NCBI RefSeq assembly: GCF_001592735.1
Contig: NZ_LUKE01000001.1
Span: forward strand, 930,001-994,000
From: Bdellovibrio bacteriovorus
GTDB taxonomy: Bacteria > Bdellovibrionota > Bdellovibrionia > Bdellovibrionales > Bdellovibrionaceae
Length of the DNA: 64,000 nucleotides
Direction of reading: 5' to 3'
How positions within the stretch are numbered: position 1 is the stretch's first letter; the number at the start of each line of letters is the position of its first letter. Position numbers and translations under genes: made by a program. Positions 27,397 to 52,753 of this stretch are shown piece by piece. Under the pieces are notes generated by a model. That model had not been told where the DNA came from and did no database searches. It worked only from the letters and a program-made list of their open reading frames with translations.

Positions 27397-28767
27397 ATGA
27401 CTGGAAAAGTATTTGTTAACCGTACATTGAATCTTAAAAAAATCCGTTACATCGGCGTCGACATGGACCACACCCTGGTTCGCTATAACAGCGAAAACTT
27501 TGAACGTCTGTCGCACACCACGATGATCGATAAACTTGTTAAACGCGGATACCCTGAAACTTTGCGCAAGCTGACGTTTGATTACAACTACGCGATTCGC
27601 GGACTTGTGATCGACCGTAAGATGGGAAATCTTTTAAAACTTAATCGTTATACCGCGATTCGTGCGAGTTACCATGGCTTGAAACCTTTGGATTTCAAAA
27701 GCCATCAAAAGCTTTACAAATCGACTTACATTGATCTTAGCGATACAGATTATTTAGCTGTCGACACTTCGTTTTCTATCTCACTTGCGAACTTGATCGC
27801 CCAGATCGTCGAACTAAAAGATACGGACACGGCGAATAAGTATCCGGAATACGCGCAGATCGCCGATGACGTATTAGATGCTTTAGATGAAGCTCATCGC
27901 GATGGCTCACTTAAAGAAGTGGTGGCGAAAAACTTAGATCAATACATTATAAAAGATCCAGAATTAGTGGCGGGATTAGAAAAATTCCGTCGGCATGGGA
28001 AAAAGATTTTCGTCTTAACGAACTCTGATTTCCATTACACGAAGCTGCTTTTAGATTACGCGATTCAGCCGTTCTTAAAGGAAACTAAATCATGGCAGGA
28101 TCTTTTTGAGTTCGTGATCACTTTTGCTTCTAAGCCCAAGTTCTTTTATGAAAGTCAAAAATACCTTCGCGTAAATCCCGCGGATGGAACAATGACGAAT
28201 ATGGAAGGAAAGCTGACTCCGGGAATTTACCAGGGTGGAAATGCAAAAAAATTCACGACAGATCTAGATTTAGCCGGTGATGATATTCTTTATATCGGGG
28301 ATCATATTTACGGCGACATCTTGCGCTTAAAGAAAGATTGCAACTGGAGAACCGCGATGGTTATCGAGGAACTTGACGTTGAAATCGATCACAACAAAAA
28401 GGCCCAACCCTTGAATCAAGAAATTGAAACCTTGATGAAGAAAAAAGAGCCATTTGAAGATGAGTTGACGTTATTAATGACGGCGAAGATTGAAAAATCG
28501 GGCGCTTACAACGAGGCTCAGGTTGAGGCTTTGCAAAAAACAATTTCGGAAGTCGATGGACAGATCAGTCAGCTGATTAAAAAACAGCAGTCCATGTACA
28601 ACGCCAACTGGGGTCAGCTCATGAGAGCTGGTAACGAAGAAAGCTACTTCGCTTACCAGTTGGATCGCTATGCTTGCGTCTACATGGAAAAACTCGGAGA
28701 CCTCTTGGACTTATCCCCAAGAACCTATTTCCGCGCCCCAAGAAGACCCCTAGCCCACGAAATCTAA
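27397..28767 (+). CDS. HAD-IG family 5'-nucleotidase
   Basis: From the ATG at 27397 the protein has 456 residues, the length of the purine 5'-nucleotidase (HAD, subfamily IG). The nucleophile/base pair is IGVDMDHTLVRY (Asp22, Asp24), followed by FVLTNSDFHYT (motif II), and DILYIGDHIYGDIL (motif III/IV). It dephosphorylates purine nucleoside monophosphates such as IMP or GMP. ELTLLMTAKIEKSG and long C-terminal helices are typical. The frame upstream of 27397 overlaps the rhodanese gene and is unlikely to be translated. The gene is followed immediately by an imperfect hairpin element at 28766. Confidence 0.9.
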   Translation: MTGKVFVNRTLNLKKIRYIGVDMDHTLVRYNSENFERLSHTTMIDKLVKRGYPETLRKLTFDYNYAIRGLVIDRKMGNLLKLNRYTAIRASYHGLKPLDFKSHQKLYKSTYIDLSDTDYLAVDTSFSISLANLIAQIVELKDTDTANKYPEYAQIADDVLDALDEAHRDGSLKEVVAKNLDQYIIKDPELVAGLEKFRRHGKKIFVLTNSDFHYTKLLLDYAIQPFLKETKSWQDLFEFVITFASKPKFFYESQKYLRVNPADGTMTNMEGKLTPGIYQGGNAKKFTTDLDLAGDDILYIGDHIYGDILRLKKDCNWRTAMVIEELDVEIDHNKKAQPLNQEIETLMKKKEPFEDELTLLMTAKIEKSGAYNEAQVEALQKTISEVDGQISQLIKKQQSMYNANWGQLMRAGNEESYFAYQLDRYACVYMEKLGDLLDLSPRTYFRAPRRPLAHEI

Positions 28768-38172: not shown

Positions 38173-38185
38173 GGAAACTGTGACT

Positions 38186-38560
38186 ATGAACTTATCAATG
38201 TTAAGAGCTAAAATTCACCGCGCCACTGTCACCGGAGCTGACTTAAGCTACGAAGGATCTGTGAGTGTTTGCCCTGATCTTATCAAGGCTTCAGGTTTCC
38301 TTATTAATGAGCGCGTGGATATTTATAACTGCAATAATGGCGCAAGATTTTCTACGTACGTGATCAAAGGAAAAAAAGGCGAAATCTGTCTGAACGGAGC
38401 AGCGGCCCGTCACGTGCAAAAAGGGGATCTTGTGATCATCTGCTCTTATTGCGGTTTGGATTTCGAAGCGGCTAAAAAGCATGAACCAACGGTTGTATTT
38501 GTTGACGAAAAGAACCGCGTTTCGGCAAAACGCAAAGAAGATCGTAAGAATAACAAATAG
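38186..38560 (+). CDS. panD: aspartate 1-decarboxylase (pyruvoyl enzyme)
   Basis: From the ATG at 38186 (AAGGAA 9 bases upstream) the precursor has 124 residues. The self-processing Gly24-Ser25 site in YEGSVSVCPDL is intact, giving a pyruvoyl group on the alpha chain after cleavage. It makes beta-alanine for PanC. It begins 14 bp after coaX and closes the pathway: panB, DUF2520, panC and panD give pantothenate and coaX and coaBC continue to CoA. No panM/panZ maturation factor is adjacent, as is common outside enterics. The C-terminal tail (KRKEDRKNNK) is unusually basic. Confidence 0.97.
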   Translation: MNLSMLRAKIHRATVTGADLSYEGSVSVCPDLIKASGFLINERVDIYNCNNGARFSTYVIKGKKGEICLNGAAARHVQKGDLVIICSYCGLDFEAAKKHEPTVVFVDEKNRVSAKRKEDRKNNK

Positions 38561-38587
38561 TTCTTCCAATCATAGGGAGGGTGAAAT

Positions 38588-39577
38588 TTGAAACAATGGA
38601 TCTTTGGTTCAGCCCGCAAAGATTTGTTTTTTTTAGTTTTACCCGGAATTTTAACGGCAGGCCTTGTTCATATCTTTCATCCGCAAGGCCTGTGGGATGA
38701 AGCGCTGGCTTTTTTTGCCTTGGCCTTTTGTGACAGCGGCCACGTTTACACCACATTCTGGCGAACCTATGCCAATGCTCGTGAAAGAAATCGCACGACC
38801 TTATATTGGACAGTTCCCCTCTTCGTTTTTCTTTTGGTCGCGATCTGGGCTTACTTTAATATGATTGGCCTGTGGACCTTCATCATCTTTGCCACCGTTT
38901 TTCATAACTATCGCCAGTTTCACGGCATCTTAAAGTGGGAACAGAAAATCAACGGCGATAAGGATCCTTGGCAAGCACGATTTCTGTTAGCGCTTTCTGT
39001 TTTACCTTTCGCACTTTTTCATTTTCGGGATCTTGATACGGACTTCGTTTTGCACGGAGCAGTACTACATTTTCCAAACCAAATGATCTTACAATCTGGC
39101 TTGATCGTGTATGCCGTAGTGTTGGCGGGATGGGTATCTAAAGTTTTAAGATCTACACTGCAAGGAACCTCAAAGGCCCCCGTTACGTTGGCCGTCATGA
39201 TTCCCAGTTTTTTGTATGGAGTTTCTTTTCTTGTCGGCACCACCATTGGTGAAATTTTGTATCCGTTGGTCGTCGCACACGGTTTTGCCTATATGGGGCT
39301 GATGAGTTTAACCCTTAAACGCACCGAAGTTCCTTGGCGCAAAGAATTCACCTGGTGGCTATTCATCATTGTCGGAACGGCTTTTGTATTTGGATTGATG
39401 GAAGCGCAATTCGAAGATTGGTTCTTACCTTTGGCAGAAAAAAATTCTTCTGCGGATTTCACCTTGGCATTTTTAATGGGGATTTATCTGATTCCGCTTT
39501 TAAGTCACTACATCTATGACGGCTGGCTTTGGAAGTCCAACCATCACGAGGCGGCTCTGGTTTATAAAAGATCTTAG
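38588..39577 (+). CDS. polytopic membrane protein with conserved histidine motifs
   Basis: The protein has 329 residues and about eight hydrophobic segments. Three histidine-bearing motifs stand out: CDSGHVYTTFWRTY (residues ~48-61), VFHNYRQFHG (~104-113) and SHYIYDGWLWK (~309-319). Clustered His in or near membrane helices suggests a metal- or cofactor-binding membrane enzyme. Similar proteins ending HYxxDGxxWK are widespread and uncharacterised. A TTG start at 38588 is chosen because GGGAGG stands 8 bases upstream. It follows panD by 27 bp and may be read through from the pan operon. It converges on the prepilin gene with a 4-bp tail overlap. Confidence 0.65.
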   Translation: MKQWIFGSARKDLFFLVLPGILTAGLVHIFHPQGLWDEALAFFALAFCDSGHVYTTFWRTYANARERNRTTLYWTVPLFVFLLVAIWAYFNMIGLWTFIIFATVFHNYRQFHGILKWEQKINGDKDPWQARFLLALSVLPFALFHFRDLDTDFVLHGAVLHFPNQMILQSGLIVYAVVLAGWVSKVLRSTLQGTSKAPVTLAVMIPSFLYGVSFLVGTTIGEILYPLVVAHGFAYMGLMSLTLKRTEVPWRKEFTWWLFIIVGTAFVFGLMEAQFEDWFLPLAEKNSSADFTLAFLMGIYLIPLLSHYIYDGWLWKSNHHEAALVYKRS

Positions 39578-40473
39578 TTACAAGTCGAATTCCCACATTT
39601 CATGCACAGATAAAAGTTTTCTGTGACTCTTACATCTGTCCAGCTTTTCTTACCAGTCTGAACGCTGCGAACAATTGAAAAGCGTCCGGATTGCGTTGGA
39701 CAGCTTCCCGCCGGGCAGGCAGCTCTGCCTGTGATAGCGTTGTTACGATCGGCTCCGGTATATTCCGGGGCACATGTGACGTTAGATTTATCACAAGTGG
39801 TGGTAATGAAAGTTCCATGAACCGTACATTCAGACGGGAATGTGCAACGCCCATTTGCATAAGTCCCACCCATAATTTCACAAGAATCTTCCGCCCCACT
39901 CTCAAGCATACAAGTGTTCATCGTGGTCGCAGAGGCATTTCGCACCAACACTGGAACCTCAAGCACACGATCTGGCAATGGAGCACGACTTTGATTAGGA
40001 CGCGCGCGCTCTAAACGCAAAACTAATTGTAATGTGTAACGGCGATAAAGATCTTGAACCGGGTCAGGACCCACCTGAACGGCGTCACCTTGGGTAATAC
40101 CCGGCTTTTGTTTCACAAATATACGATTTACAAAAAGTCCACGGTCGACCTCGGTCCCCGCCGTGATCCCTAAAGAAGCGTTGGGTAACAAGCCACGGAA
40201 AGTGCTGACGTTAAGATCTAATTCATTTGTTCCGGTAGGTAATTGTCTATTGCGAACCGCCGTTTCGCAGTTCGCCGGAACCGTGATGTGCTGAAAGAAT
40301 GCCGCAGAAAAGTTATCTCCGACGTCCACCACGCTGATCTGTTTTTGCATAATGAACAAGTGGTTGATGGACATCGCGATGCCCAAAGACAGCAAAGCGA
40401 AAATTCCCAAGGCGACAAGAATCTCAAGCAGCGAAAAACCACCGACATTTTTGCGGATTTGAAAAGATCTCAT
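39574..40473 (-). CDS. type IV prepilin-like protein (PilW/GspJ-type) with Cys-rich tail
   Basis: From the ATG at 40473 (GAGGAG 5 bases upstream) the protein has 299 residues. The leader ends in Gly12 and the mature start is FSLLEILVALGIF, a textbook prepilin peptidase site with Glu at +5 and a hydrophobic stalk (about 13-33). After a globular domain the last 110 residues hold many cysteines (about 11 in DSCEIMGGTYANGRC through a final CMKC), probably disulphide-linked. The tail shares spacing with the prepilin at 45302 (SCEIMG / TCAMLG, then GRC / GTC). It is divergent to the membrane spermidine-synthase-like gene with 58 bp between starts. It is likely a minor pilin. Confidence 0.88.
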   Translation of the reverse strand: MRSFQIRKNVGGFSLLEILVALGIFALLSLGIAMSINHLFIMQKQISVVDVGDNFSAAFFQHITVPANCETAVRNRQLPTGTNELDLNVSTFRGLLPNASLGITAGTEVDRGLFVNRIFVKQKPGITQGDAVQVGPDPVQDLYRRYTLQLVLRLERARPNQSRAPLPDRVLEVPVLVRNASATTMNTCMLESGAEDSCEIMGGTYANGRCTFPSECTVHGTFITTTCDKSNVTCAPEYTGADRNNAITGRAACPAGSCPTQSGRFSIVRSVQTGKKSWTDVRVTENFYLCMKCGNSTCN

Positions 40474-40531
40474 CAATACTCCTCGAAATAATCTTGGCTG
40501 AATCCCTCGCACATGAGACTCTCTTGAGTGT

Positions 40532-42136
40532 ATGAACGTCTGGCTGTCATGTACACTCATTTTTGCATTATCATTCTGCAGCCTTGCCTATGAATTATTT
40601 CTGGCGAAGATTCTTACCGACCTATCTCAAAATGAAATTCTGTCCCAAAGCTTAGGAATCGGTTTATTTCTATTAGGATTAGGCGCCGGTGCCGCACTGT
40701 CTTCAGTCTGGAAAACCGATCAACCCGTCAAGAGACTCTTTTATGTCGAATGCCTTCTAGTTTCTTTGGCATTTTTGGTCATTCCTAGCTCCTATGGCAT
40801 CGCCTTTCTACACCATCTTTCCCCATTTGGTCCCGCAGGATTCATTTACTATTTTGTGGGCTTGCTGATTTTCGCGGTCGGACTGCTTTCAGGCTTCGAG
40901 TTCCCCCTATTGTGGCAAGAGCAAGGGGAAAAAATGAGAGCCAGTATTCCGTTGGCCATGAGCTATTTAGGCGGACTCTTTGCGGGGTTCGCGGTGCCCT
41001 TAATATTAAACCCAGGCTGGGGACCCTTTAAAGCCATCATTTTTTTGGGTTTGATAAATGCTGTGATTGCTTTTTCTCTTTTGCCGTTCGTCGAGAAAAA
41101 CGCCTGGCTTAAGCCGCGCTATCTTTCGTGGCTTTTATTACCAACCGCGGCTCTGTACATGAGCTCTTTGTATTCACCCCAGCTGGAACAAGCTTACTTA
41201 AAGGCTTCCTATTTTAAAGTTCAGATTCCCGATCTTAACGTCGCCGCGATAAAAAACATTTGGAATGGGTTAAAGTTAATCCCAACGGTTCAAAGGTGGT
41301 ATTCCCCTTACCAAAAAATCGATCTAGTACAAAGCTCCGCCGCTTCTTCGTGGGCCATGGATCCGTTAGAGGGAGTAACTCTTTACCTAGACCGCCGCTT
41401 GCAATTTAATGAAAGCTCTTACCAGATTTATCATGAGTCGATGGTGTATGGAGCGTTCAACCTGCGCAAAAAAGTTCCAGAAAATATCCTGATCTTAGGT
41501 GGCGGTGATGGGCTTTTGGCGACAGAGCTTTTAAAACACCCAGAAATTAAACGCATTGATTTGGTGGAAATCGATCCAAAAATGATTGAACTGGGCAAAG
41601 AAAATTTCCACTTCACCAGACTTAATCAAGGATCTTTAGAAAATCCGCGCGTGAATGTTCATATCGAAGATGGATTTGCCTTTATGAAACATCAAGCGCC
41701 CGAACAGTTTGATGCCGTGTTTATCGATTTTCCGTATCCCCATTCCCCGGATCTTTTACGCCTGTACAGTGTCGAGTTTTATAAAATTGTACGAAGGACA
41801 TTAACACCCAAAGGGTTTGTTATCATGGATGGACCTCTGTATTCGCCCGACGAAATGCAGGCCGCAAATACTAAGACACCACCGCAATGGGTCTTGCGTG
41901 ATACGATCAAATCCGCCGGATTTAAGAATATCTTTGCTTTCGGAAACTTTGAAGGTTTCTATTTTTTTACCAAGGACGAGTTCAAAGCGCAGTTTGACTA
42001 CGGCCGAATACCCCAAGCTATTAGCAACCCAGCCTTGGTAAACTTACAAAATTTAAATGGCTATCTTGAGGGAGGCGAAGACACGTCTCGCGTAAATTCA
42101 CTATTTCGCCCTTACCCTATTATGCCAGGTCGCTAA
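40532..42136 (+). CDS. membrane spermidine-synthase-like protein
   Basis: The protein has 534 residues. Residues 1-215 form about seven membrane helices, starting MNVWLSCTLIFALSFCSLAYELFLAKI. Residues ~300-510 form a spermidine-synthase-like methyltransferase fold: NILILGGGDGLLATELLKH, IDLVEIDPKMIELG, and FDAVFIDFPYPHSPDLLRLYS. The last motif has F-Y-P in place of the S-D-P of classical aminopropyltransferases, so substrate use may differ. Polyamine synthesis is thus uncertain. The stand-alone protein at 43874-44566 resembles its membrane half. Its stop overlaps the convergent acyltransferase gene by 36 bp. Confidence 0.85.
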   Translation: MNVWLSCTLIFALSFCSLAYELFLAKILTDLSQNEILSQSLGIGLFLLGLGAGAALSSVWKTDQPVKRLFYVECLLVSLAFLVIPSSYGIAFLHHLSPFGPAGFIYYFVGLLIFAVGLLSGFEFPLLWQEQGEKMRASIPLAMSYLGGLFAGFAVPLILNPGWGPFKAIIFLGLINAVIAFSLLPFVEKNAWLKPRYLSWLLLPTAALYMSSLYSPQLEQAYLKASYFKVQIPDLNVAAIKNIWNGLKLIPTVQRWYSPYQKIDLVQSSAASSWAMDPLEGVTLYLDRRLQFNESSYQIYHESMVYGAFNLRKKVPENILILGGGDGLLATELLKHPEIKRIDLVEIDPKMIELGKENFHFTRLNQGSLENPRVNVHIEDGFAFMKHQAPEQFDAVFIDFPYPHSPDLLRLYSVEFYKIVRRTLTPKGFVIMDGPLYSPDEMQAANTKTPPQWVLRDTIKSAGFKNIFAFGNFEGFYFFTKDEFKAQFDYGRIPQAISNPALVNLQNLNGYLEGGEDTSRVNSLFRPYPIMPGR

Positions 42137-43171
42137 AAATTTTTCGCCGATACGAACCAAGCCTTCTGCCGAAGGTAAAACACTGATGAAGTAAATTTCG
42201 AAAAGCCAAGGGTGGTCTGTAAAATAAGGACGCATGTAAATGCCCACGCCCAATAAAACCAAATGAGTCAAATAAGTCAGACCAAAAGATTTATTCCAGC
42301 GCATTTCAGAAATCGCCACGGCCCAACATTTTTTGCTAAGCCATAAATTTACACGATCAAGCATCGAAATACGCATCGCGAATATCAACCAGATCATCGT
42401 CGACCAAAAAAGATAAGGTTCTATACGTAAAGTATGACAATAAAAATGAGGCCCAATAGGGACCCAGTTAAATGCTCCAAAGAAGGGAATACTTAACCCT
42501 AAGATCACAACCCACGCAAAAACCTCACCACGAAACATGGTTTTGGTCCACAGCTTAAATTTTTCTGAAACTCGATACCATTTCCCCAGACAGAAAAACA
42601 AAGTCGGCCAAGCAAGCCACGGAAGAAGTGGCCAAGAGCCCACCCCTTGCGGAGGGCAAATTCCCACTAAAGCTTGAGTGATTGCATCCGTGGAATTGGG
42701 AATCAATCGCCATGCAGGAATCCATGTTGCCAAAAAGGCCGCCCCTGCAATCCATCGATGCCACCGCGGCGGCAACAAAACCAGCATTTGGATGAAAGCG
42801 ACACTGACCGCCAAGAAGGAATAAATATCCCATTCCCAATAAAACCCCGTAAATGGAGGGTCTTCTTGAAAAGCGGCCACAACTAAGACTCCAAGAAAAA
42901 TAAAGCCAATCAAGGCGGAATAGTTCTTACGCGAGCCTTTCCCCATTAAAAAGAAACTTAGAGCGATAACGGTGAATCCACTGAAAGTGATATGCTGACT
43001 GAACGCATGAATCACGCGATATACATAAAGCGAAGACATCATAGGATTGAAGTCTTGCCAAAAAACCGCTTCATTTACGTGAAACGTGACAATCGCCACC
43101 ATGCTGACAATCCGAATAAGATCAAAACCGAAGGTGCGTTTAGAACTAAGGATAGAGGACGTCATAGTCAT
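42101..43171 (-). CDS. acyltransferase-3-like membrane protein
   Basis: The protein has 356 residues and about ten hydrophobic segments. It opens RTFGFDLIRIVSMVAIVTFHVNE, the common start of acyltransferase-3 family membrane proteins (D-L-I-R near the first helix and H at about residue 28), which acylate periplasmic or surface glycans. The catalytic His appears in FHVNE. Substrate is unknown. The start (ATG 43171 or the second at 43165) lies within the previous gene, overlapping by 26 bp, so it is the last gene of a four-gene leftward set with 43146, 43874 and 44563. It overlaps the convergent gene at its 3' end. Confidence 0.68.
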   Translation of the reverse strand: MTMTSSILSSKRTFGFDLIRIVSMVAIVTFHVNEAVFWQDFNPMMSSLYVYRVIHAFSQHITFSGFTVIALSFFLMGKGSRKNYSALIGFIFLGVLVVAAFQEDPPFTGFYWEWDIYSFLAVSVAFIQMLVLLPPRWHRWIAGAAFLATWIPAWRLIPNSTDAITQALVGICPPQGVGSWPLLPWLAWPTLFFCLGKWYRVSEKFKLWTKTMFRGEVFAWVVILGLSIPFFGAFNWVPIGPHFYCHTLRIEPYLFWSTMIWLIFAMRISMLDRVNLWLSKKCWAVAISEMRWNKSFGLTYLTHLVLLGVGIYMRPYFTDHPWLFEIYFISVLPSAEGLVRIGEKFLATWHNRVRAK

Positions 43172-43889
43172 CCAGAGATCTATAAGTAAGACGCAAATTA
43201 TTTAAAAGAAACTCACCGTTCAATTTACGCGCGGTCGCAATCGCTGCACCATCAAGCACGCGCAGGTTAAATTTTCCCAGATTCAGCTCATACTGCAAAA
43301 ATCGACCCTCAGCATCCAACCAAGATTTCCAAGAGACCACCAAAGAGGCAAAACTCACCGGTGACTCTTTAGGGACTTCGATCTTTCTTAAGTAAGTGCT
43401 GGGCAGCCATTTTCCGTCGGCGACAATGGTCTGACGAATGGCATTTGATTCTTTATTAAAAAGATACACTTCATTTTTCTGCAGTGAAATTCCATACCCA
43501 ATCCAATCTCTTTGCAGCGATGATGGAATCCGGAAAAATTTCTGAATACCTTGCAAGGATATCTTTGGATTTTCAGGAAATATAAAGATGTAAGAATCTG
43601 TTTGCACACCTTTAGTAAAGCGCATTCCAAACTGCAAGCGGGGCCAAGAAAAATCAGCTAACGGGGTAAAGTTCCAATCCGTCATCTGCGCACTTTCTTG
43701 CAGAATATGATCTTGCCACTTTTTTTGTTCAGCAGAACTAGTGACGCTAAAATTTTCTATCACCCATTTTGAAAATCGTGGGGCCACGGCTTGAACATAC
43801 GCTGGCTCTGACGTGCCCAAAAAAGTATCCATTTGGGTAGCCTGGCTGAGCGCGGGAAAAAGAAATATGAATGCTAAGAAATAAACCAT
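43146..43889 (-). CDS. secreted hypothetical protein of the prepilin cluster
   Basis: The protein has 247 residues with a signal peptide (1-17, ending LSQA). The mature region has beta-rich features (FTPLADFSWPRLQFGMRFTKG; RRKLNGEF-like terminal strands) and no cysteines, hence a periplasmic or outer-membrane-associated soluble protein. No family is recognised. It overlaps the stand-alone membrane-domain gene upstream by 16 bp and the acyltransferase gene downstream by 26 bp, implying translational coupling and a shared process. Confidence 0.6.
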   Translation of the reverse strand: MVYFLAFIFLFPALSQATQMDTFLGTSEPAYVQAVAPRFSKWVIENFSVTSSAEQKKWQDHILQESAQMTDWNFTPLADFSWPRLQFGMRFTKGVQTDSYIFIFPENPKISLQGIQKFFRIPSSLQRDWIGYGISLQKNEVYLFNKESNAIRQTIVADGKWLPSTYLRKIEVPKESPVSFASLVVSWKSWLDAEGRFLQYELNLGKFNLRVLDGAAIATARKLNGEFLLNNLRLTYRSLDDYDVLYP

Positions 43890-44566
43890 TCACGAATCCA
43901 ATCCAGCCAATAGTTTTGCGCCATCAGTAATACCAATGCTAAAGAAGACAGTGCCCCGAATATATAGCCGTCTTTTTTAAGATAAATTCGTCCCCGATAT
44001 AGGCAAAAGAACACTATACCCGCCGCGAATAAATTTAATATCCCGACCCAAACGCTCCCTAAAAAAGGGCCACCTAACGGGTAGATTAAAAAAGGAACCA
44101 TCAAACTTCCAGCAAACATTCCCATGTAATCAGAAGAAAGTGTTTCCAATTCTCGGCGTCGATCTTTGCAAAGAGATAAAAGTAACGGCAACTCATAACC
44201 GGAAAAAAAACCCACTCCAACAACAGGAAGATAAAAAACCACTTCCCATAAAAGCCCTAAGCTGCTGCCAATGCGGAAAGGGTCTAAGAAAACAATCAGA
44301 ATCGGTCCAAGTAGACCCAAGGCTGCCAAAATGAGTTCTACATGAAAAAGAATCCGGACTTTTTCTGCCTGGCTGTATTCTTTGCGAGCATACACCAGAG
44401 AACCCACACCCAGACTTAATGAAAATAAACCGATGACTGTGCAATAGCGTAAAAGACTTCCACCCAAAGTTGCCGCTAATACTTGCGCTAAAACCAATTC
44501 ATAAACAAGGCTGCAAAGAGCGGCCAAGAAAGTGAGAAATATAAGGGCTACGTGAGGTAAGATCAC
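43874..44566 (-). CDS. stand-alone membrane domain like that of spermidine-synthase-like proteins
   Basis: The protein has 230 residues and about seven membrane helices. It begins LTFLAALCSLVYELVLAQVL, closely resembling the first helix of the protein at 40532 (CSLAYELFLAKIL), and keeps GLFSLSLGVGSLVYARKE, FFSGYELPLLLSL, and GPFLG. The methyltransferase-like domain is entirely absent and the frame closes cleanly, so this is not a truncation at the end of the window. It may be the membrane half of a split system, possibly pairing with the fused protein. It overlaps its neighbours by 4 bp and 16 bp. Confidence 0.75.
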   Translation of the reverse strand: MILPHVALIFLTFLAALCSLVYELVLAQVLAATLGGSLLRYCTVIGLFSLSLGVGSLVYARKEYSQAEKVRILFHVELILAALGLLGPILIVFLDPFRIGSSLGLLWEVVFYLPVVGVGFFSGYELPLLLSLCKDRRRELETLSSDYMGMFAGSLMVPFLIYPLGGPFLGSVWVGILNLFAAGIVFFCLYRGRIYLKKDGYIFGALSSLALVLLMAQNYWLDWIREWFIS

Positions 44567-45303
44567 TGCGCTCCGGTTTGTGCCTTCATGCTGTTATAAA
44601 TTTTTTCAAAATCATCAGCTCGTGCCTCCAAGGTGGAGGCGTCACCTGAGACCACAAACATATATGTCCCTAAACCATCTGCACGGGAAAACACCGCCAC
44701 ATGTATCTCTTGATTATTCGGCCCCACCCCGCTGTATAACTGTGCTGATTTCATCCCGCTTCCCGAGGCCGGGGTTTTATTTTTTGGAGGAGCAAATTGA
44801 ATTCCGCGTTTATCTAAATTTGGAATTCCGGTGTCGGCTGATTTTAAAAAGGCCTCAACATCCTTTTGATCCGCCTCTCCTTTTTTGGCTACGACGGCCA
44901 TCTCCATGCCATTGGCACGAGAGTAAATCGCCGACATGTCGGGGAAAGAAAGATCGACTTTCTGAAAGGGAATATTTTCTGGCATATCCATTTGCAAGAA
45001 GGCCTCTTGTAAAAACTGAGTTTTTGATTGCCCAGAAACTTGCTGCTCAAGGCTCAATGATGGCGCCACGGAGGCACTGTTTGCCGAGGGAGAACTGCTC
45101 GGCGAAGGACTCATCTCCGGTTGAGATGGGTCTAGTTTTCTAGAGGCTGCCGAGGCACTAGAGTCATTTTTAAGATCAACAGATTGATCTCTTATTGCTG
45201 AAGCAGGCGGGGTAATGGCATAATTTTGCTTAGACTTGTACATTTTGAATAGGACTCCAAGTCCCAAAACGAGGCAGATCATTAAAATGAAGTTTTTATT
45301 CAT
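44563..45303 (-). CDS. single-pass membrane protein with periplasmic domain, paralogue of 47009-47725
   Basis: From the ATG at 45303 the protein has 246 residues: a short cytoplasmic tail, a membrane helix (about 4-20, FILMICLVLGLGVLF), a low-complexity Ser/Pro linker (residues ~30-80) and a C-terminal domain (~95-246). That domain is plainly homologous to the protein at 47009: for example FLKSADTGIPNLDKRGI versus FLRSTDSGIPNVDGKRI, and RADGLGTYMFVVSGD versus RADGKGSYLFIFTGA. No known family is recognised. It is the first gene of a leftward operon with 43874, 43146 and 42101. Its start overlaps the divergent prepilin gene. Confidence 0.65.
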   Translation of the reverse strand: MNKNFILMICLVLGLGVLFKMYKSKQNYAITPPASAIRDQSVDLKNDSSASAASRKLDPSQPEMSPSPSSSPSANSASVAPSLSLEQQVSGQSKTQFLQEAFLQMDMPENIPFQKVDLSFPDMSAIYSRANGMEMAVVAKKGEADQKDVEAFLKSADTGIPNLDKRGIQFAPPKNKTPASGSGMKSAQLYSGVGPNNQEIHVAVFSRADGLGTYMFVVSGDASTLEARADDFEKIYNSMKAQTGAQ

Positions 45304-46213
45304 GAATGTCATACAAAAATCATATCGCCGACATATTGCGAACGCAAGGGGCATCACCATGATGGAACTTATCGTTGCCGCCGGCCTTATGACTCTAGTA
45401 TCTGCGGGAGTAGCCACCGGAATTTACCGGGTCATGACAAGCCAGAATGAGCTGAATAAAAAGTTTGATGGCAGTGAGTTTGTGGCGAGCCTGGGTCGTT
45501 CAATGACGGACCGAGCAACGTGCCGATCTTTTCTTTCAGGACAAATACTTCCCACAACCACGGAATTTCGGCCATTAACAATGGCAGGTTACAAAGGATT
45601 CGGTGATTCCGCGCAACCCCTAGCGTCGGGTTATATCATTGCGGGCACAGCGACAAGCCCGCAAGTCGTGGTCACTGACCTCAGCTGGCGTCTTAAGGAG
45701 ATTGTCCCCGCTTCAAGTTATTTTCGTATGACTCACAACGGGGTGACCGCAGAGTACTTAAAGGCACCGATGCAATTGCGCGTGAATCTTTCGGTTTATC
45801 AGAACGGCATAGCGACGGCCCTGCCTTCTCGTTATTTAGATTACTCGGTGGTGGCTCTCACGGGAACGAGAGCGGTGACCGATTGCGATGGCGCTCCGAG
45901 CGTGGCCGATACCTGCGCTATGTTGGGTTCAACACTAAATCCCGATGGCACCTGCCAAATCAATGTGGAAGGCTGCGTGATTCGCGGCTCATACGTAAAC
46001 TCGCGTTGCTCACCAACTGGATATACTTGCCGGGCCACAACAAGCTCTCCGTCTCGACCACACCCTGAAACAGGAACCTTCAGTTGTCCTGCGGGATCTC
46101 AAGCCTTTACATCTTTTAACTACACTTGGGTCTCTGAAGAAAGAACCGGAAAAAAATCCGACATCAACGTTACCAATACGATCCAAGCTTACATGTGCAT
46201 GAGTTGCCGGTGA
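45302..46213 (+). CDS. type IV prepilin-like protein with Cys-rich tail
   Basis: The protein has about 303 residues from the ATG at 45302; an ATG at 45287 is an alternative. The mature start after the leader Gly is ITMMELIVAAGLM, with Glu at +5 and a hydrophobic stalk, so it is a prepilin peptidase substrate. The C-terminal ~100 residues are cysteine-rich and resemble the tail of the prepilin at 39574: TCAMLGSTLNPDGTC versus SCEIMGGTYANGRC, then CVIRGSYVNSRC versus CTVHGTFITTTC, ending CMSC versus CMKC. The two are paralogues. The next gene's GTG overlaps its TGA (46210-46213). The start codon shares CATG with the divergent gene's start. Confidence 0.85.
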   Translation: MNVIQKSYRRHIANARGITMMELIVAAGLMTLVSAGVATGIYRVMTSQNELNKKFDGSEFVASLGRSMTDRATCRSFLSGQILPTTTEFRPLTMAGYKGFGDSAQPLASGYIIAGTATSPQVVVTDLSWRLKEIVPASSYFRMTHNGVTAEYLKAPMQLRVNLSVYQNGIATALPSRYLDYSVVALTGTRAVTDCDGAPSVADTCAMLGSTLNPDGTCQINVEGCVIRGSYVNSRCSPTGYTCRATTSSPSRPHPETGTFSCPAGSQAFTSFNYTWVSEERTGKKSDINVTNTIQAYMCMSCR

Positions 46214-47007
46214 AGACACTAACTCGATCTGAAAAAGGCTCAGTGTTGCTTTTAGTTTTAGCCTTCGCGGTCGTGGTTGGGGTAATCGCCTTTGGTGTTC
46301 AACAAAGAATTCAAGGGGCGCTGAGTACTCAGAAAAACCGCGTTCTAAGAAATCAGTACATCGATCTTACAGAATCCATCCGTCGTCAGCTAGAAGATCC
46401 TCAGTTATGCCCCACACTGATCGGGGGACAACCTGTGAATACCGGTCGATTAGCCGGGATCAATACTTCTTTTGGCTCTATTAACACTCAGCCTATCGCC
46501 TCGGGTTGGTTGTCGAATCCCGGCGGGGTCCGTGTTAACTCTATTCAAATCCGTGATCTGGCTTTTGTGAAAAACATCTATATGGCTAATGATGGCGCCA
46601 CTTACCAAGTCTTCCGCGGAAATATTTTTCTGGATGCCTCCAACGTCTTGATTAACGTCACAGGTTCCGGCGGACGTTCCGATCTTATGATTGAAATGCT
46701 ATTCATGGTGCAAAGTAACCAGATACGTGGATGTTTCGGCGTCACCTCGCAAGGCGGGCAATGCATCGCCATGGGTGGTGGTTACGACTGGCGACCCGGG
46801 ACCTCGGGATATACTTATCCGCAACATCGCTGCCATCCTCAGGCTGTGTGTCGATATACGTCTAATGGTACATTTTCCGCAGCAAATGAAGCGGCCGCAA
46901 ACAATATTTGCCGCCAACCATTTCGCGCCACATCGGTAGGAATGTTTATGGATACCGGACAAGGACGATACTTTTGTCAGTGGTGCAACTCGCACTATCA
47001 CGATTAG
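46210..47007 (+). CDS. prepilin-like protein lacking the +5 glutamate (PilX/GspK-like)
   Basis: The GTG at 46210 overlaps the preceding stop (GTGA). The protein has 265 residues; the leader MKTLTRSEKG is followed by SVLLLVLAFAVVVGVI, a pilin-like helix without Glu at +5, as in GspK/PilX tip pseudopilins. The C-terminal region is also Cys-rich (QIRGCFG, GQCIAM, HRCHPQAVC, NNIC, YFCQWC) and ends, as in the other two, in a CxxC pair. It is co-translated with the prepilin at 45302. An ATG at 46195 in frame would extend the leader by five residues. Confidence 0.7.
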   Translation: MKTLTRSEKGSVLLLVLAFAVVVGVIAFGVQQRIQGALSTQKNRVLRNQYIDLTESIRRQLEDPQLCPTLIGGQPVNTGRLAGINTSFGSINTQPIASGWLSNPGGVRVNSIQIRDLAFVKNIYMANDGATYQVFRGNIFLDASNVLINVTGSGGRSDLMIEMLFMVQSNQIRGCFGVTSQGGQCIAMGGGYDWRPGTSGYTYPQHRCHPQAVCRYTSNGTFSAANEAAANNICRQPFRATSVGMFMDTGQGRYFCQWCNSHYHD

Positions 47008-47008
47008 T

Positions 47009-47725
47009 TTATTCAGGTTGAGCTTTGAGATTATTATAGAGCTCTTCAAAGAAATCTTCAGAGTTATCTAGTTTGTCTTCTGCACCCGTGAATATAAATA
47101 AATAACTGCCCTTGCCATCGGCGCGCTCTATAAGACCTACCCGCACTCCTTTATTATCCGCCGTTCTTCCAGCCCAGTATTTTCCGGTTCTAAATCCACT
47201 GCCCGATGGGGGCGGCACGACAATGGCATCACCCTGCAAAGAAATCCTTTTTCCATCGACATTCGGAATTCCCGAATCAGTGGAACGTAAAAAATCGGCA
47301 ACTTCTTTATCGCTGGGTAAAATTCTTCCGGCCAATACAGCCGTCTCCATAGTTTCAGTGCGTGCGTATATCCCGGTGATTTGATCAAAATCTAAGTTCA
47401 ACTGCTGAAAGCGAAAATTTTCGGGAAACTTCATTTGCACGCGGGCCAACTGCATGAATTCTGCCGTGGCCTTTTCAGAAACAATTCGCGAGTTCGAATA
47501 TTTTTCGATCATCCCCGGGCCCGGGCCAATAGACAATGAGTCTCCTTGCCCCGCCGGTCTAGAAGCTCCACTCGTCCCCGCACCTGAAACAAATCCTTCA
47601 TTCACGGATGAGGTTGCCATCGGCGAAGACTTTCCTGCAACTTCCAGTTTTTGCGAAATTTTCGCCACCACTAGAAATAAAATAATCAGTCCGCCAATGG
47701 CAAAAATGAGGAGATTGCGATTCAT
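47009..47725 (-). CDS. single-pass membrane protein, paralogue of 44563-45303
   Basis: The protein has 238 residues: an N-terminal membrane helix (about 3-22, LLIFAIGGLIILFLVVA), a Gly/Ser-rich linker (residues 30-75) and a C-terminal domain (~95-238) homologous to that of the protein at 44563 (QMKFPENFRFQQLNLDFD versus MPENIPFQKVDLSFPD; ERADGKGSYLFIF versus SRADGLGTYMFVV). Each of the two paralogues neighbours a prepilin gene, suggesting a duplicated partner module. It ends 1 bp from the convergent prepilin gene. No known domain is recognised. Confidence 0.65.
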   Translation of the reverse strand: MNRNLLIFAIGGLIILFLVVAKISQKLEVAGKSSPMATSSVNEGFVSGAGTSGASRPAGQGDSLSIGPGPGMIEKYSNSRIVSEKATAEFMQLARVQMKFPENFRFQQLNLDFDQITGIYARTETMETAVLAGRILPSDKEVADFLRSTDSGIPNVDGKRISLQGDAIVVPPPSGSGFRTGKYWAGRTADNKGVRVGLIERADGKGSYLFIFTGAEDKLDNSEDFFEELYNNLKAQPE

Positions 47726-47783
47726 GCCGAAATTGTACCCTCAATAGGTTTAAAAATCGAGCCATCGTAGTGTGACTTCATAA

Positions 47784-48746
47784 TTATTTACAGTATTTAT
47801 ATTTCGCCATGATAGCACGCGTTTTTTGCGCGCCTCGGATATCGCCGCCACGACGTTTGTTCCAGTCATCACTGCGCAGCGGGCCCCAATAAGTGCCTTC
47901 TCTGCCTTTAGAAGTTGGAGTCATCAAGTTGTCGCGTTTACGAAGCTCATTCGCCAACATATCAATCGCACACTCGGTATTTTCATAAGGATTTCCCAGG
48001 TTACGCGCTTTGGGGCACACCGGCTTCCAAACTTGGAAAAGACCTCTCGCTACACCATCCGGAGCATTGGGATTATTCGCCGCGGGATTACAGCTTGATT
48101 CCGAACTCGCCATCGACATCAAAATCCAGACCCAGTAAAGATCGCGTTGCGCCTTATTCATGCTTGGATATTTTGGACACCACTTTGTGATATCATCTGG
48201 AACATTTGAGCCAAACGCATCTGGGTGAGAACGTATCTGTCCCAAAGCCGCGTTTCCCCATGGCCCTAGCTTTCCATCACGATTAATAAATTTATCACAA
48301 CCTGCGCTGAAAGTGAGGGTCCCTTCGGCTCCGATATCACGCGAAGTTTTTTCGTCGATCTCCGGATCGTAAGTGTAACCTTTGGATTCGTAATCAGCCC
48401 ATGCAACTTGTCGTAAGTTGTAAGCCGTATCTTCCAGATTTTTTGTCGTCCCACCGCCAGCGGTCTCACTGCTTGCACTGGAAAACATGGCCGTACAAAG
48501 TCCCGTCAGTGGCGCAATCATTCCGTTGATTTGCTGCTGCTTCAAAGCATCTTGTTGAGCTTTAATTTGTGCGTCTTGAAATGCCTGCATTTGCATTGCT
48601 TGCTGCTGCATAAGATAGTTTTGCTGTGCGTTAATCAAATTGAACGTAGTCGCTTGGTCCAAGGCCTGAGCCCAAGATGCGGAGCTCTGCGTAAGAATCG
48701 CGAAGGAAAAAAACAATAGGCATGTCAGAGAAGATCTTGTCCGCAT
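47784..48746 (-). CDS. secreted SLT-type lytic transglycosylase-like protein
   Basis: The protein has 320 residues with a signal peptide (about 1-26, ending SWAQA). Residues ~28-75 are Gln-rich and probably helical (NAQQNYLMQQQAMQMQ). The C-terminal part contains MASSESSCNPAANNPNAP and ARGLFQVW, matching the ESS...GLFQ signature of SLT lysozyme-like enzymes; the catalytic Glu would be in ASSESSC. These enzymes cleave peptidoglycan glycan strands with formation of 1,6-anhydromuramyl ends. Its position beside the prepilin genes suggests wall passage of a pilus-like structure or prey-wall attack; both are inference. Confidence 0.75.
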   Translation of the reverse strand: MRTRSSLTCLLFFSFAILTQSSASWAQALDQATTFNLINAQQNYLMQQQAMQMQAFQDAQIKAQQDALKQQQINGMIAPLTGLCTAMFSSASSETAGGGTTKNLEDTAYNLRQVAWADYESKGYTYDPEIDEKTSRDIGAEGTLTFSAGCDKFINRDGKLGPWGNAALGQIRSHPDAFGSNVPDDITKWCPKYPSMNKAQRDLYWVWILMSMASSESSCNPAANNPNAPDGVARGLFQVWKPVCPKARNLGNPYENTECAIDMLANELRKRDNLMTPTSKGREGTYWGPLRSDDWNKRRGGDIRGAQKTRAIMAKYKYCK

Positions 48747-48993
48747 ACAAGGCTTATCGGGTTTTCAAGCACTTCCATAAGCACTTGCAGAGGAGAATTT
48801 GCCGAAATTCCCATTCTGAGACACCGAATTCAGCCTCGCCGCATTGCGTAGAAATGTCGGGATTCTGTTTGTTCAGATTTTTTAAGTTGGAACTGGACGC
48901 AGATCGAGGTCTAAGAGTTCTAAACCAACGTATATACCGCGAATCGGCGCGGCGTTTCTACCAGACACCTTAATGTCTGACTATGGGGGAATC

Positions 48994-49848
48994 ATGAAAC
49001 TTTTTGCTATGCTAGCGCTGGTGCTGGCGGCTCAGATTTGTTCCGCAGCAGGAACTTCTCAAAAATTCGCTTACTATGGTGAAGAATTCTACAACAACAT
49101 CGCAACGGGAATGAAGGGTGATGAGCTTCGTGAAAATATCAATCACGTGCTTGAATCTTTCCATCGTTCCGTGCCAAACAAGTTTGATGAAATCAGCAAC
49201 GAATGCTCAGGCAGCGGTTGCTACACTCAGACTTCTTTAGGTTACGACGGCGCTCGCGTTTTCTTGATGGGTAAATACTATCTAGTAGACCACGGAAATG
49301 GCGAATACGGAGTTCGCGACGTTTACTGTAATAACGAAAAAACATCTCGTGACTTCCGTGGTAAAGAACGCCCAGGTCCAAATCGCGTACCAAACGCAAA
49401 TGTCATCAATACGGAACACACATGGCCTCAAAGCCGTTTCGGTGGCCATGGTCGTGGATACCAAAAGGCAGATCTTCACCATCTTTTCCCGACGGATTCT
49501 CAAGCGAATTCAACTCGTGGAAATTTCAACTTCGGCGAAGTGGCTCAAGATACAAAACAAGTTAACTGCGTCGCCTCTCGCTTTGGCCGTGCGACCGATG
49601 GCACTCAGAATATTTTTGAACCACCAGATAACCACAAAGGAAACGTGGCGCGCGCCCTGTTTTACTTTGCCGTTCGCTACCAAATGCACATCAACCCTTC
49701 AGAAGAAGCTTACTTAAGAAAATGGTCTAAGGAAGACCCGGTTGATGAGGATGAAATGGCTCGCAACCAAGCGATCTTCGAAGTTCAAGGAAACAGAAAT
49801 CCTTTTATCGATGTTCCAGGTTTAGAAGATTTGATTCACGATTTCTAA
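48994..49848 (+). CDS. secreted endonuclease I family DNase
   Basis: From the ATG at 48994 the protein has 284 residues with a signal peptide (1-18, ending ICSA). Family motifs: VINTEHTWPQSRFGG (catalytic His in EHTWPQS), KADLHHLFPTDSQANSTRGN and FNFGEV. Disulphide cysteines may include NECSGSGC. It hydrolyses double-stranded DNA in the periplasm or outside. In predatory bacteria such nucleases may help digest prey DNA; that is inference. Upstream are 247 bp with a CAGACA-TGTCTG hairpin (48962-48979) just before the ribosome-binding region. A strong terminator follows at 49859. Confidence 0.92.
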   Translation: MKLFAMLALVLAAQICSAAGTSQKFAYYGEEFYNNIATGMKGDELRENINHVLESFHRSVPNKFDEISNECSGSGCYTQTSLGYDGARVFLMGKYYLVDHGNGEYGVRDVYCNNEKTSRDFRGKERPGPNRVPNANVINTEHTWPQSRFGGHGRGYQKADLHHLFPTDSQANSTRGNFNFGEVAQDTKQVNCVASRFGRATDGTQNIFEPPDNHKGNVARALFYFAVRYQMHINPSEEAYLRKWSKEDPVDEDEMARNQAIFEVQGNRNPFIDVPGLEDLIHDF

Positions 49849-49858
49849 TTCGTAGGGT

Positions 49859-49893
49859 AAAAAGGTCGCGGTACAAAATGCCCGACCTTTTTT
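49859..49893 (+). terminator. rho-independent terminator of the endonuclease I gene
   Basis: AAAAGGTCG-CGG and CC-CGACCTTTT form a stem with a TACAAAATG loop, followed by a T-run (TTTTTTATTT). It sits 11 bases after the endonuclease stop, just before the convergent AHSA1 gene's stop, so it can act in both directions. Confidence 0.85.
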
Positions 49894-49895
49894 AT

Positions 49896-50327
49896 TTAGA
49901 AATCTAGATACTCTTTAAGTTCTTTTAAATGATAGGTCCAACCCGTCTTAAAATCCTTCAGGGTTTTAGAACGAATCGCCGCCGGCAAGCTTTCCCAGCC
50001 CGTGTGTCGCACGGTCAGGGCACTTTTTCCAGGTCCCGCTTCCGAAATTTCATAAGTGCATTCGGTAACCGCGTTTTTAGGCCACGATTTTTCAACCCAA
50101 GTAAAACGGATCAACTTAGATTTTTTAACTTCTAGGACCTTGCCAGAGGCCATTTGCGCTTGGCCGTCGTCATCTTCCCATTTCTCACGAAACTGTCCGC
50201 CGACCTTGGCCTCAAGCTTAATTCCTTCGCCCCACCAGTTTTCAAGTTCATCGCTATCCGTAAGGGCATGCCAAACTTCGCCCGTCCCGGCTCTGACTGT
50301 GATACTAAGTTCGATCTGGTCTTTCAA
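49896..50327 (-). CDS. AHSA1/SRPBCC domain protein
   Basis: The protein has 143 residues, a single START-like domain: IELSITVRAGTGEVWHALTD (first strand and helix), ELENWWGEGIKLEAKVGGQF and a C-terminal RSKTLKDFKTGWTYHLKELK helix, all typical of the AHSA1 group. These are small cytoplasmic proteins that bind hydrophobic ligands; function is unknown. The start overlaps the stop of the upstream secreted gene by 4 bp. Confidence 0.88.
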   Translation of the reverse strand: MKDQIELSITVRAGTGEVWHALTDSDELENWWGEGIKLEAKVGGQFREKWEDDDGQAQMASGKVLEVKKSKLIRFTWVEKSWPKNAVTECTYEISEAGPGKSALTVRHTGWESLPAAIRSKTLKDFKTGWTYHLKELKEYLDF

Positions 50328-50722
50328 TTCAACTCCACAAAAGATTTGTCTTCTTTAAAGTAACAGACCGAAGAGATTTTTTTAACCCCATGACGACGCG
50401 CAATGCGGGCTTCTCCATGAGAGTCGCGACACTTATCTGACAATTCTTTTTGCGATTTACTAAAGTACGATTTTAAATCTTGAGCCTTACAGGGTTTCTG
50501 CAGGTTCGTTTCACAGGATTGAGCAAAGGCCACGCCTTCTTCCTCCAGATAAGAAAGAACTTCGTACTGAGCGAGTCCCGTCTGAATGGCAATTTGACCC
50601 TCTACAGTTTCAGGAAAAGTCACGGCTGTTTTTGAAACTACTTTCCTCGGCGTTTCCGGCGAAGCCAATGCCGAAGTTACGAAAAACAAAATCATAAGAG
50701 TCATTCCAAAAATTTTTTCCAT
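50324..50722 (-). CDS. small secreted hypothetical protein
   Basis: The protein has 132 residues with a signal peptide (1-20, ending SALA). The mature part is helical and polar, with four cysteines (QSCETN, KPCKAQ, DKCRDS, SVCYFK) that could form two disulphides. No family is recognised. It is the first gene of a two-gene unit with the AHSA1 protein (4-bp overlap) and diverges from the ABC-F gene; the region between is 195 bp. Confidence 0.6.
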   Translation of the reverse strand: MEKIFGMTLMILFFVTSALASPETPRKVVSKTAVTFPETVEGQIAIQTGLAQYEVLSYLEEEGVAFAQSCETNLQKPCKAQDLKSYFSKSQKELSDKCRDSHGEARIARRHGVKKISSVCYFKEDKSFVELN

Positions 50723-50882
50723 GAACTCTCCCTTCGCGATTCAGAAATCATAGATTACGTCTGATAAATCTGTGACGCCAGCCTCAATGGTATTTTTGGA
50801 GCAAAGTCTAAGTTTCCACAAATTGCCTCGTGCTCGTCGGCATTTTCCTAAGCGGAATTTGTTTTTCATGCGTGTAGAAAAC

Positions 50883-50910
50883 TTGACGTTACAAATTTTT
50901 CCTTTAAATT
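50883..50910 (+). promoter_or_regulatory. sigma-70-like promoter of the ABC-F gene
   Basis: TTGACG (50883-50888) and TAAATT (50905-50910) are separated by 16 bases. The -10 box ends 8 bases before the ATG at 50918, which places the expected transcript start at or next to the start codon. No Shine-Dalgarno is present (CCGTAAG before the ATG). A leaderless message is therefore predicted for this gene. Confidence 0.6.
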
Positions 50911-50917
50911 CCGTAAG

Positions 50918-52753
50918 ATGGCGCTGACTCTTCTGCAACTTCAATCTGGCTACAAATCATTTGGCTCAAAATCTCTTTTTGAGGATGCAACATTTGCTAT
51001 CAACGAAGGCGAACACGTCGGAGTTATCGGGCCCAATGGAGCTGGAAAATCCACCTTGTTTAAGATCCTAGTAGACCAAGAGCACTTGGACCAGGGGCTG
51101 GTGACAAAATCTCAACAATTGCGTCTTGCATATCTTGAACAAGAATCCGACTGGAACGTCGATGAAAAGGTCGAGGAATATCTAGCCAATAACTGCATCA
51201 AACCGATCTGGGAATTAAAACAGTTCGGTCTGAAATTAGGATTGACTGAAGATCATTTTCAATCCCACTTAAAACAGCTTAGCGGTGGTTACCGCATGCG
51301 TGCGAAACTTTTATACCTGATTGGACAAGAGCCCAATCTACTTTTACTGGATGAACCCACAAACTTTTTGGATCTAGAGACACTTTTAGTCTTAGAAAGT
51401 TTTCTGCAGGAATACAAAGGGGCTTTTCTTTTAATTTCCCATGATCGCGAATTCCTACGTCGCGTGACCGACCATATCTTAGAGGTCGAAGCCGGTGATA
51501 TCGTTAAATTTCCGGGAAGCCTTGATGATTATTTTGAACAGAAAAGAATGCTCGCCGAAATCTTGCAAAAACAGATCATGAGCCAAGAGGCTAAAAAGAA
51601 ATCCATCATGGATTTCGTAACAAGATTTGGAGCCAAGGCCACCAAAGCCCGCCAAGCACAGAGCCGTCTTAAGGCCTTGGAAAAAATGGAAGTCATCGAA
51701 GTGAAAGCCGCCCCGACACATTCGCATATCCATATTCCGCCCCCCAGCGCGACCGGAAAACAGATTTTAGAATTAGAAAACGCGGCTTGCGGCTATGGCA
51801 GTAAAGTGATTCTAAAAAACGTCAACTTGCGCTTAGAACGTGGGATTCATTTGGGCATTGTGGGTTTTAATGGTGCGGGTAAATCCACTCTATTAAAATC
51901 ATTGGCCGAACAGATTCCCTTACTCGAAGGTACCATTAAGTGGGGTCATCAAGTCAGCCTTTCTTATTTCGCGCAACACACGCCAGAGGCTTTAAATCCT
52001 GAACACAACGTCCTAGAGGCCATGGCTTCTAAAGCGCACAAAGAAGTGACCCAACAAGATGTTTTAAATATCGCCGGCAGCTTATTATTTTCCGGTGACA
52101 ATGCGCTAAAAAAGATCAAGGTTCTTTCGGGTGGCGAAAAATCACGCGTGGCTTTGGGGCAGATCTTGTTGCAAAAATCACCCTTGTTATTACTGGATGA
52201 GCCTACAAATCACTTAGATTTTGACACCGTCGAAGCCTTAACGGGGGCATTGGAAAAGTACGAGGGCACGATTATCACCGTCAGCCATGACCGCGGCTTC
52301 ATCGGGCGAGTGGCAACAAAAATTCTTGAAATTAACAACGGTCAGCTGACTTTGTATCCGGGGACATATGATGAGTATGTCTGGAGTTTACAAAAAGGTT
52401 TTTTGGCCGAAAGAAATCTTGACGCCGCCACAGACTCTTCAGCGACTAAGTCAGACACTTCTGATGCGCCGAAGCTTAACTACAAAGAAGAGCGCAAACG
52501 TCTTGAAGGCCTAGTTAAAAAATCTCAAAAACACATAGAAGACTGCGACAAGAAGATTGCAGAACTTAGCAAAATGCGTGATGCTTTAAGCGAAAAACTC
52601 ATGAGTGCCAGTGGTGATAAGGCCGCCGCGTTTGCTAAAGAACTGCACGCGCTCAGCGGACAAATTGAAGAGCTAGAAGTTTCCATGCTGGATTCCATGG
52701 AGCAACAGCATGCACATGAGCAAGAACTTAAACAGCTAATGGGATTGTCATGA
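50918..52753 (+). CDS. ABC-F family ATPase (ribosome-associated type)
   Basis: The protein has 611 residues: two ABC domains with no membrane spans, as in Uup/YheS-like ABC-F proteins. Domain 1 has [24 protein letters not shown] and LLLLDEPTNFLD; domain 2 has [23 protein letters not shown] and LLLLDEPTNHLD. A linker lies between (residues ~235-265), followed by a C-terminal coiled coil (~525-611). ABC-F proteins act on the ribosome, promoting translation of some messages or protecting against antibiotics. Which role applies here is unknown. No ribosome-binding site precedes the ATG. It overlaps the next gene by 4 bp. Confidence 0.95.
   Translation: MALTLLQLQSGYKSFGSKSLFEDATFAINEGEHVGVIGPNGAGKSTLFKILVDQEHLDQGLVTKSQQLRLAYLEQESDWNVDEKVEEYLANNCIKPIWELKQFGLKLGLTEDHFQSHLKQLSGGYRMRAKLLYLIGQEPNLLLLDEPTNFLDLETLLVLESFLQEYKGAFLLISHDREFLRRVTDHILEVEAGDIVKFPGSLDDYFEQKRMLAEILQKQIMSQEAKKKSIMDFVTRFGAKATKARQAQSRLKALEKMEVIEVKAAPTHSHIHIPPPSATGKQILELENAACGYGSKVILKNVNLRLERGIHLGIVGFNGAGKSTLLKSLAEQIPLLEGTIKWGHQVSLSYFAQHTPEALNPEHNVLEAMASKAHKEVTQQDVLNIAGSLLFSGDNALKKIKVLSGGEKSRVALGQILLQKSPLLLLDEPTNHLDFDTVEALTGALEKYEGTIITVSHDRGFIGRVATKILEINNGQLTLYPGTYDEYVWSLQKGFLAERNLDAATDSSATKSDTSDAPKLNYKEERKRLEGLVKKSQKHIEDCDKKIAELSKMRDALSEKLMSASGDKAAAFAKELHALSGQIEELEVSMLDSMEQQHAHEQELKQLMGLS

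Follow-up and report, generated by a model that had tools for sequence, protein, structure and literature searches.

The window analysed here, the whole of a 64,000-nucleotide stretch of Bdellovibrio bacteriovorus DNA (contig NZ_LUKE01000001.1, positions 930,001 to 994,000; G000:C1:930001-994000 in our numbering, in which Gxxx denotes genomes, Lxxx the loci examined, and C1, C2, C4, and C5 contigs of the window genome G000), comes from a genome of 3.9 Mb. Between panD and a transglycosylase gene (J), it contains a cassette composed of gene X and genes A to I (Table 1), which encodes three prepilins (A, G, and H) together with a set of membrane and exported proteins. We propose, with a probability of roughly 0.55, that this region is an accessory minor-pilin tip module of the Bdellovibrionota, with a shared motor, gripping tails that resemble the P2 domain of perforin-2, and a dedicated membrane maturation unit. 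An earlier note on the same DNA had described a tip system made up of prepilins and membrane partners; this was right in outline, although both the P2-like tail and the spermidine-synthase-like enzyme were absent from it. The cluster itself was confirmed after its boundaries had been edited: the prepilins and membrane partners had been correctly included, but X had been left out and J wrongly counted. J is ruled out as a cassette member because the cassettes of other genomes contain no match to it and because a genus mate has J after panD without any cassette.

Table 1. Genes of the cassette and its flanks (coordinates in the window) and a related operon in other genomes.
Feature	Description	Position	Strand	Basis or remark
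panD	flanking gene	38180-38560		X is the first gene after panD
X	membrane protein, 329 aa, ~7 hydrophobic segments	38588..39577	+	frequent cassette member
A	prepilin, GspJ/PilW-like, Glu at +5 (E5) present, C-terminal perforin-2-P2-like Cys-rich repeat	39574..40473	-	start is the internal Met at 40473
B	seven-transmembrane domain fused to spermidine-synthase-like domain	40532..42136	+	PF01564, E 3e-28
C	acyltransferase-3-like multi-pass membrane protein	42101..43171	-	conserved in cassette
D	probably secreted, conserved C-terminal LYYP	43146..43889	-	family alignment
E	seven-transmembrane protein, homologue of the N-terminal half of B	43874..44566	-	NF002956, E 7e-27
F	single-transmembrane protein with PsbP/Mog1-like extracytoplasmic domain	44563..45303	-	predicted fold
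G	prepilin, paralogue of A, C-terminal perforin-2-P2-like repeat	45302..46213	+	AlphaFold2 model
H	PilX/GspK-like pseudopilin without E5, ends in CxWCN	46195..47007	+	family alignment; hhalign
I	paralogue of F	47009..47725	-	BLASTP E 1e-37 with F
J	transglycosylase, outside cassette	47784-48746	-	
Bacteriovorax-like second operon	L114, L116-L118, L120, L122-L124, L128-L130, L162	~5000-12300		

Both A and G carry the prepilin pattern of glycine at -1 (G-1) and E5, and their scores against PF07963 (N_methyl) are 26.2 bits, above the cut-off of 21.2, and 12.9 bits, below it, respectively. In the alignment of the GspJ/PilW-type family, E5 is kept in 27 and G-1 in 26 of the 28 sequences. H is without E5, as are all other aligned members of the PilX-type family (21/21 including H). 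The earlier claim of three prepilin-like proteins, two with Glu+5 and one without, thus describes a family-wide pattern, and two further claims were borne out: all three proteins end in CxxC or CxWC, and two of them, A and G, have related tails, being paralogues with 27% identity (E 5e-28). H is homologous to A and G over 210 columns (hhalign E 1e-20), including a common C-x9-C..GG.YD..C.P..C segment, which makes the three a single family whose members have diverged in their tails. Sequence comparisons identify A and G as minor pilins of the GspJ/PilW kind and H as one of the GspK/PilX kind. As previously noted, the cluster is devoid of motor genes; ATPases of the PilB/GspE type are encoded elsewhere in the genome (PF00437 matches of 487 and 461 bits on C2, and others), which agrees with the shared motor then proposed. 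A search of the genome for PF05567 (PilY1) gave no match, but control genomes gave no match either.

The GspJ-like character of A, the GspK-like character of H, and the enzyme-like appearance of B and C would also suit a variant pseudopilus of the type II secretion system (T2SS) kind, in which A, G, and H export a product made or modified by E, B, C, and D. The genome does encode GspE-like ATPases, one of which is adjoined by a four-prepilin cluster on C2. We consider this explanation unlikely, as the module is without GspG, GspD, or an evident secreted cargo gene and large extracellular tails are found more typically on tip pilins. Other minor-pilin-like clusters of the same genome lie on C5 (L088, ~8700-11600) and C4 (L089, ~20400-27700), and in one of these a 1130 aa secreted protein is encoded beside PilW/PilX/PilV-like genes. 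In G041, a PilX-like homologue (L025:7435-9171, minus strand) carries Ig-like repeats of the HYDIN/ASH type in its C-terminal part and has an end rich in Cys.

When the prepilin family profile was compared with PDB sequences, the P2 domain of perforin-2 (MPEG1) was matched over the Cys-rich tail with an E-value of 7.4e-7, which is a whole-sequence sum of two domains. With a tail-only profile, perforin-2 was the sole match (E 1e-4), the next entry having an E-value of 1.4, and a control with the same tail sequences reversed gave no MPEG1 match, which rules out cysteine composition as the source. The AlphaFold2 model of G, built from 22 sequences with a predicted local distance difference test (pLDDT) score of 84, has tail strands at residues 225-236, 266-280, and 286-300; a Foldseek search with this model returned perforin-2 at all ranks from 1 to 12. 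In VIA-align, residues 225-302 of G were superposed on residues 377-466 of P2 (Z 8.8, root-mean-square deviation 2.8, 74 residues), compared with Z 3.7 for the best unrelated chain. The tail consists of one P2-like repeat, which ends the protein, in place of the three pseudo-threefold repeats of P2; as modelled, it resembles P2 repeat 1 and is neither a full P2 domain nor a perforin. This predicted fold is more specific than 'cysteine-rich', the term used in the earlier note. H provides no second P2 repeat, since its tail had no match in PDB and only the upstream Cys segment is common to it and A/G.

Eight cysteines are invariant in the tail of the prepilin family, and the predicted hairpin turn carries the motif GKK (G in 25, the first K in 26, and the second K in 25 of 28 sequences), which is flanked by a Cys pair in ~20 of the 28 (C-G-K-K-C). 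The disulphide-locked tip envisaged in the earlier note is plausible in view of these residues, although A and G themselves have T and S in place of the tip Cys pair. The tail profile matched A with E 1e-34, A itself being a member of the profile. In perforin-2, the P2 hairpin Y427-V452 is required for binding phosphatidylserine, cardiolipin, and Escherichia coli lipids, and P2 also binds lipopolysaccharide (LPS) (PMC6989145). The P2 stretch aligned to the G tail (377-466) contains this hairpin, and the hairpin that the tip would display is, by analogy, probably lipid- or LPS-binding. The two nearly invariant lysines predicted at the tip of the hairpin also recall minor pilins that bind DNA (FimT and ComZ, for example), and a DNA-uptake (competence) tip, whose cationic GKK hairpin would bind DNA and whose module would serve transformation, was weighed on this basis. 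This appears to us quite unlikely, because the best fold match is to a domain that binds lipids and LPS, the module is without competence genes, and no part in DNA uptake is known for its set of membrane enzymes.

The two paralogous single-pass membrane proteins reported in the earlier note correspond to F and I. F consists of one transmembrane segment followed by a domain modelled at pLDDT 80, the predicted fold of which is that of PsbP/Mog1 (2xb3, Z 11.4; EagT6, Z 11.4; SciW, Z 10.3; PsbP and Mog1, Z ~10-11). EagT6 and SciW chaperone the transmembrane segments of type VI secretion system effectors, and a similar chaperone role for F and I would be our guess. The acyltransferase-like protein of the earlier note, C, is indeed conserved in the cassette, but its assignment falls short of the Pfam threshold: the window protein had no PF01757 (Acyltransferase-3) hit, and the best homologue tested scored 22.7 bits against a cut-off of 31. 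No sequence relative of C was present in PDB. D matched no Pfam family and X none above cut-off; homologues of X occur in the same cassette at 12 of the 26 loci of other genomes that have both pilin types, some of these contigs being short.

The two related membrane domains recognized earlier are E and the N-terminal half of B, whereas the spermidine-synthase-like domain of B had been missed. This C-terminal domain, which matches PF01564 (Table 1) and PDB spermidine synthases (E 5e-33), has a Rossmann GGGDG motif, and B, with its transmembrane domain, scores 248.9 bits against NCBIfam PRK03612, below the curated cut-off of 472. Its active-site motif is DFPYP in place of D-x-x-D-P; in a motif survey, B proteins throughout the cassettes had DFPYP, DFPFP, or DLPFP, and canonical members DLPDP. 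B keeps the fold for S-adenosylmethionine (SAM) or decarboxylated SAM but has lost the second Asp, which disfavours plain spermidine synthesis; it therefore probably acts on an unusual acceptor. Decarboxylated SAM may still be the donor, because relatives that also read DFPYP have a fusion of SpeD with E, and it should be available in the host because a canonical SpeD-SpeE fusion with DGSDP is encoded separately in the genome. E and B are fused in G059 and G041 (775 and 731 aa, respectively). A SpeD gene lies directly after C in G059 (L023:15366-15824, plus strand), the only cassette found with its own SpeD.

Outside the cassette, E and B are accompanied by SpeD in Omnitrophota and Legionellaceae, among others. 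Bacteriovorax-like genomes possess a second conserved operon (Table 1) that encodes SpeD fused to E, B, a large Cys-rich secreted protein (1100-1380 aa), and a multi-pass protein that is acyltransferase-like by eye and without a Pfam match. Two genomes have E-SpeD-B adjacent to a minor pilin operon of the PilV/GspH/PilW/PilX type (L164:2662-11806 and L168:2918-12188), which overturned the view that loci with E and B only are unrelated to pili. Both of these loci also carry a further protein resembling major facilitator superfamily members and spermidine synthases. We place E and B in tip maturation because of this second pilin association and their repeated pairing with Cys-rich exported proteins. 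It is rather improbable, however, that the full scheme applies in which a predator's tip grips the prey outer membrane through a perforin-2-like hairpin and the tips are covalently modified by B, a repurposed spermidine synthase acting with E in the aminopropylation of protein or lipid during pilus maturation.

Co-conservation was examined by profile searches over 369 genomes of the phylum, reading 10-20 kb around the prepilin matches; a single-protein scan of genome contigs with G had given no match, so profiles were required. The full-length prepilin profile detected 29 genomes and an independent F/I profile 23, of which 22 were among the 29 prepilin-positive ones (hypergeometric p 2.5e-28, uncorrected for genome relatedness; the matches span several families and orders). 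A lack of co-conservation, which the earlier note had named as grounds for dismissing its proposal, is thus not what was found. The near-identity of the two genome sets also excludes a search artefact as the cause of the sparse distribution. Few relatives had a G-type protein; in the four with strong matches, the neighbourhood was made up of the same genes, namely prepilin(s), H, F/I, E, B, D, and C. In most contigs of sufficient length, the typical layout is [prepilin-H] divergent from [F/I-E-B-D-C], often with X added. The tail-only search likewise detected 29 genomes, with the tail found only together with the cassette; in G085, the sole new genome from this search, the prepilin lies beside an E homologue. 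Among named records, the carriers are mostly metagenome-assembled genomes, and the cassette is carried even by G231 (L066) and G232 (L065), whose genomes measure only 1.2-1.3 Mb. In the window, F and G diverge from overlapping start codons (CATG at 45301-45304), leaving zero intergenic space, and ~100-150 bp are present at the equivalent site in two relatives (L022 and L025). A promoter scan counted fewer sites than in shuffled sequences, and a PHROGs search gave no match.

Directly after panD, genus mates have a J homologue (L183), an endonuclease gene (L185), or an ABC ATPase gene (L186 and L187), and the endonuclease and ABC ATPase genes lie beyond the cluster in the window. The segment from X to I is therefore an inserted accessory island, with panD and J on either side; the whole site from panD to the ABC ATPase gene (38560-50918) varies in content among genus mates. 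Only 2 of 24 genomes of the genus have the cassette. G and H of the window share 42% identity with the corresponding proteins of G196, which belongs to another genus, but only 22-27% with those of G020 of the same genus, a pattern that fits horizontal spread. The cassette has probably been spread horizontally, as judged from these sequences; its G+C content showed no deviation, and a plasmid search gave no match.

Taken as an accessory tip module, the cassette would function as follows. After cleavage by a shared prepilin peptidase, A, G, and H would be assembled into the priming and tip complex of a type IV filament by an ATPase that is likewise shared and whose gene lies elsewhere. The tail at the far end of A and G, with its P2 repeat-1-like fold including the long beta-hairpin and the almost invariant GKK at its predicted tip, would let the pilus take hold of another cell's outer surface, by analogy with the lipid-binding P2 hairpin. 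F, I, E/B, D, and C would act together in the inner membrane as a maturation unit dedicated to the tips, which they would fold, guard, or modify. We infer the tip position, filament type, ligand, maturation, and predation role from this combination of features, and the P2-like tails beside a recurring set of membrane genes point to a specialized, exchangeable head of the pilus for contact with other cells.

Several points weigh against this proposal. All of its functional steps are computational predictions, and the accepting filament may be either a type IVa pilus or a T2SS. The best single domain behind the summed P2 match has an i-Evalue of 0.001, and the best tail domain of the tail-only profile a weak per-domain E-value of 0.09-0.36; the P2 alignment comprises 74 residues at 17-19% identity, one of three repeats, and a model from 22 sequences. 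No counterpart of the hydrophobic LKIF tip of P2 was seen in the prepilins. The case for a horizontal origin is built from empty sites and patterns of identity rather than from a phylogeny, and E, SpeD, and B are widespread without these pilins. The weak tail values and the widespread E-SpeD-B sets would also be expected if A, G, and H were ordinary accessory PilW/PilX pilins with a P2 likeness due to convergence, and the membrane genes unrelated conserved neighbours from a polyamine or lipid pathway. We nevertheless judge this unlikely, given the strict co-occurrence of prepilins with F/I, the synteny of the divergent operons, and the second, independent association of E/B with minor pilins (L164 and L168).

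To our knowledge, how Bdellovibrio-type predators recognize prey is largely open, and an accessory tip module of this kind would be a defined candidate contact device for them. It would link a membrane-gripping domain, known here otherwise from animal immunity, with type IV pilins and give a genomic context to membrane spermidine-synthase-like proteins of unstudied role, and its natural presence or absence between close relatives offers a ready comparison. We found no published description of the cluster: none of the papers listed in our searches seemed to deal with it, and the single paper that mentions both 'pilin' and 'perforin-2' is on an unrelated matter.

Among known systems, the tip complexes of type IVa pili (PilV/PilW/PilX/FimU) and of T2SS (GspI/J/K) share with the cassette the prepilin signals, a long N-terminal helix, one E5-less member, a tandem operon, and a motor encoded elsewhere. 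Unlike them, the cassette has PilW- and PilX-like members only, a P2-like disulphide tail, and fixed membrane partners. Perforin-2 P2 and the prepilin tail have in common the repeat-1 fold, the long beta-hairpin, an SCPxG motif, and a CGKKC/CKKKC element, but P2 has three repeats, whereas the bacterial pilin carries one and is without a MACPF domain. The PRK03612 membrane polyamine aminopropyltransferases resemble B in their N-terminal transmembrane region and GGGDG Rossmann domain, and E in the transmembrane domain alone; B differs in having DFPYP rather than DLPDP, in scoring below the cut-off, and in its linkage to prepilins. The predicted extracytoplasmic domain of F/I shares its fold with PsbP, Mog1, and DcrB proteins, including the Eag chaperones SciW and EagT6, but F and I are membrane-anchored, predicted to lie outside the cytoplasm, and without a sequence family match. 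The Kil (Tad) pili of Myxococcus follow the same principle, a predator's pilus with exchangeable tip pilins rich in disulphides, but, going by their published description, they combine Tad-type pili with KilN tips, whereas the cassette combines PilW/GspK-like pilins with a P2-like domain (PMC12075869).

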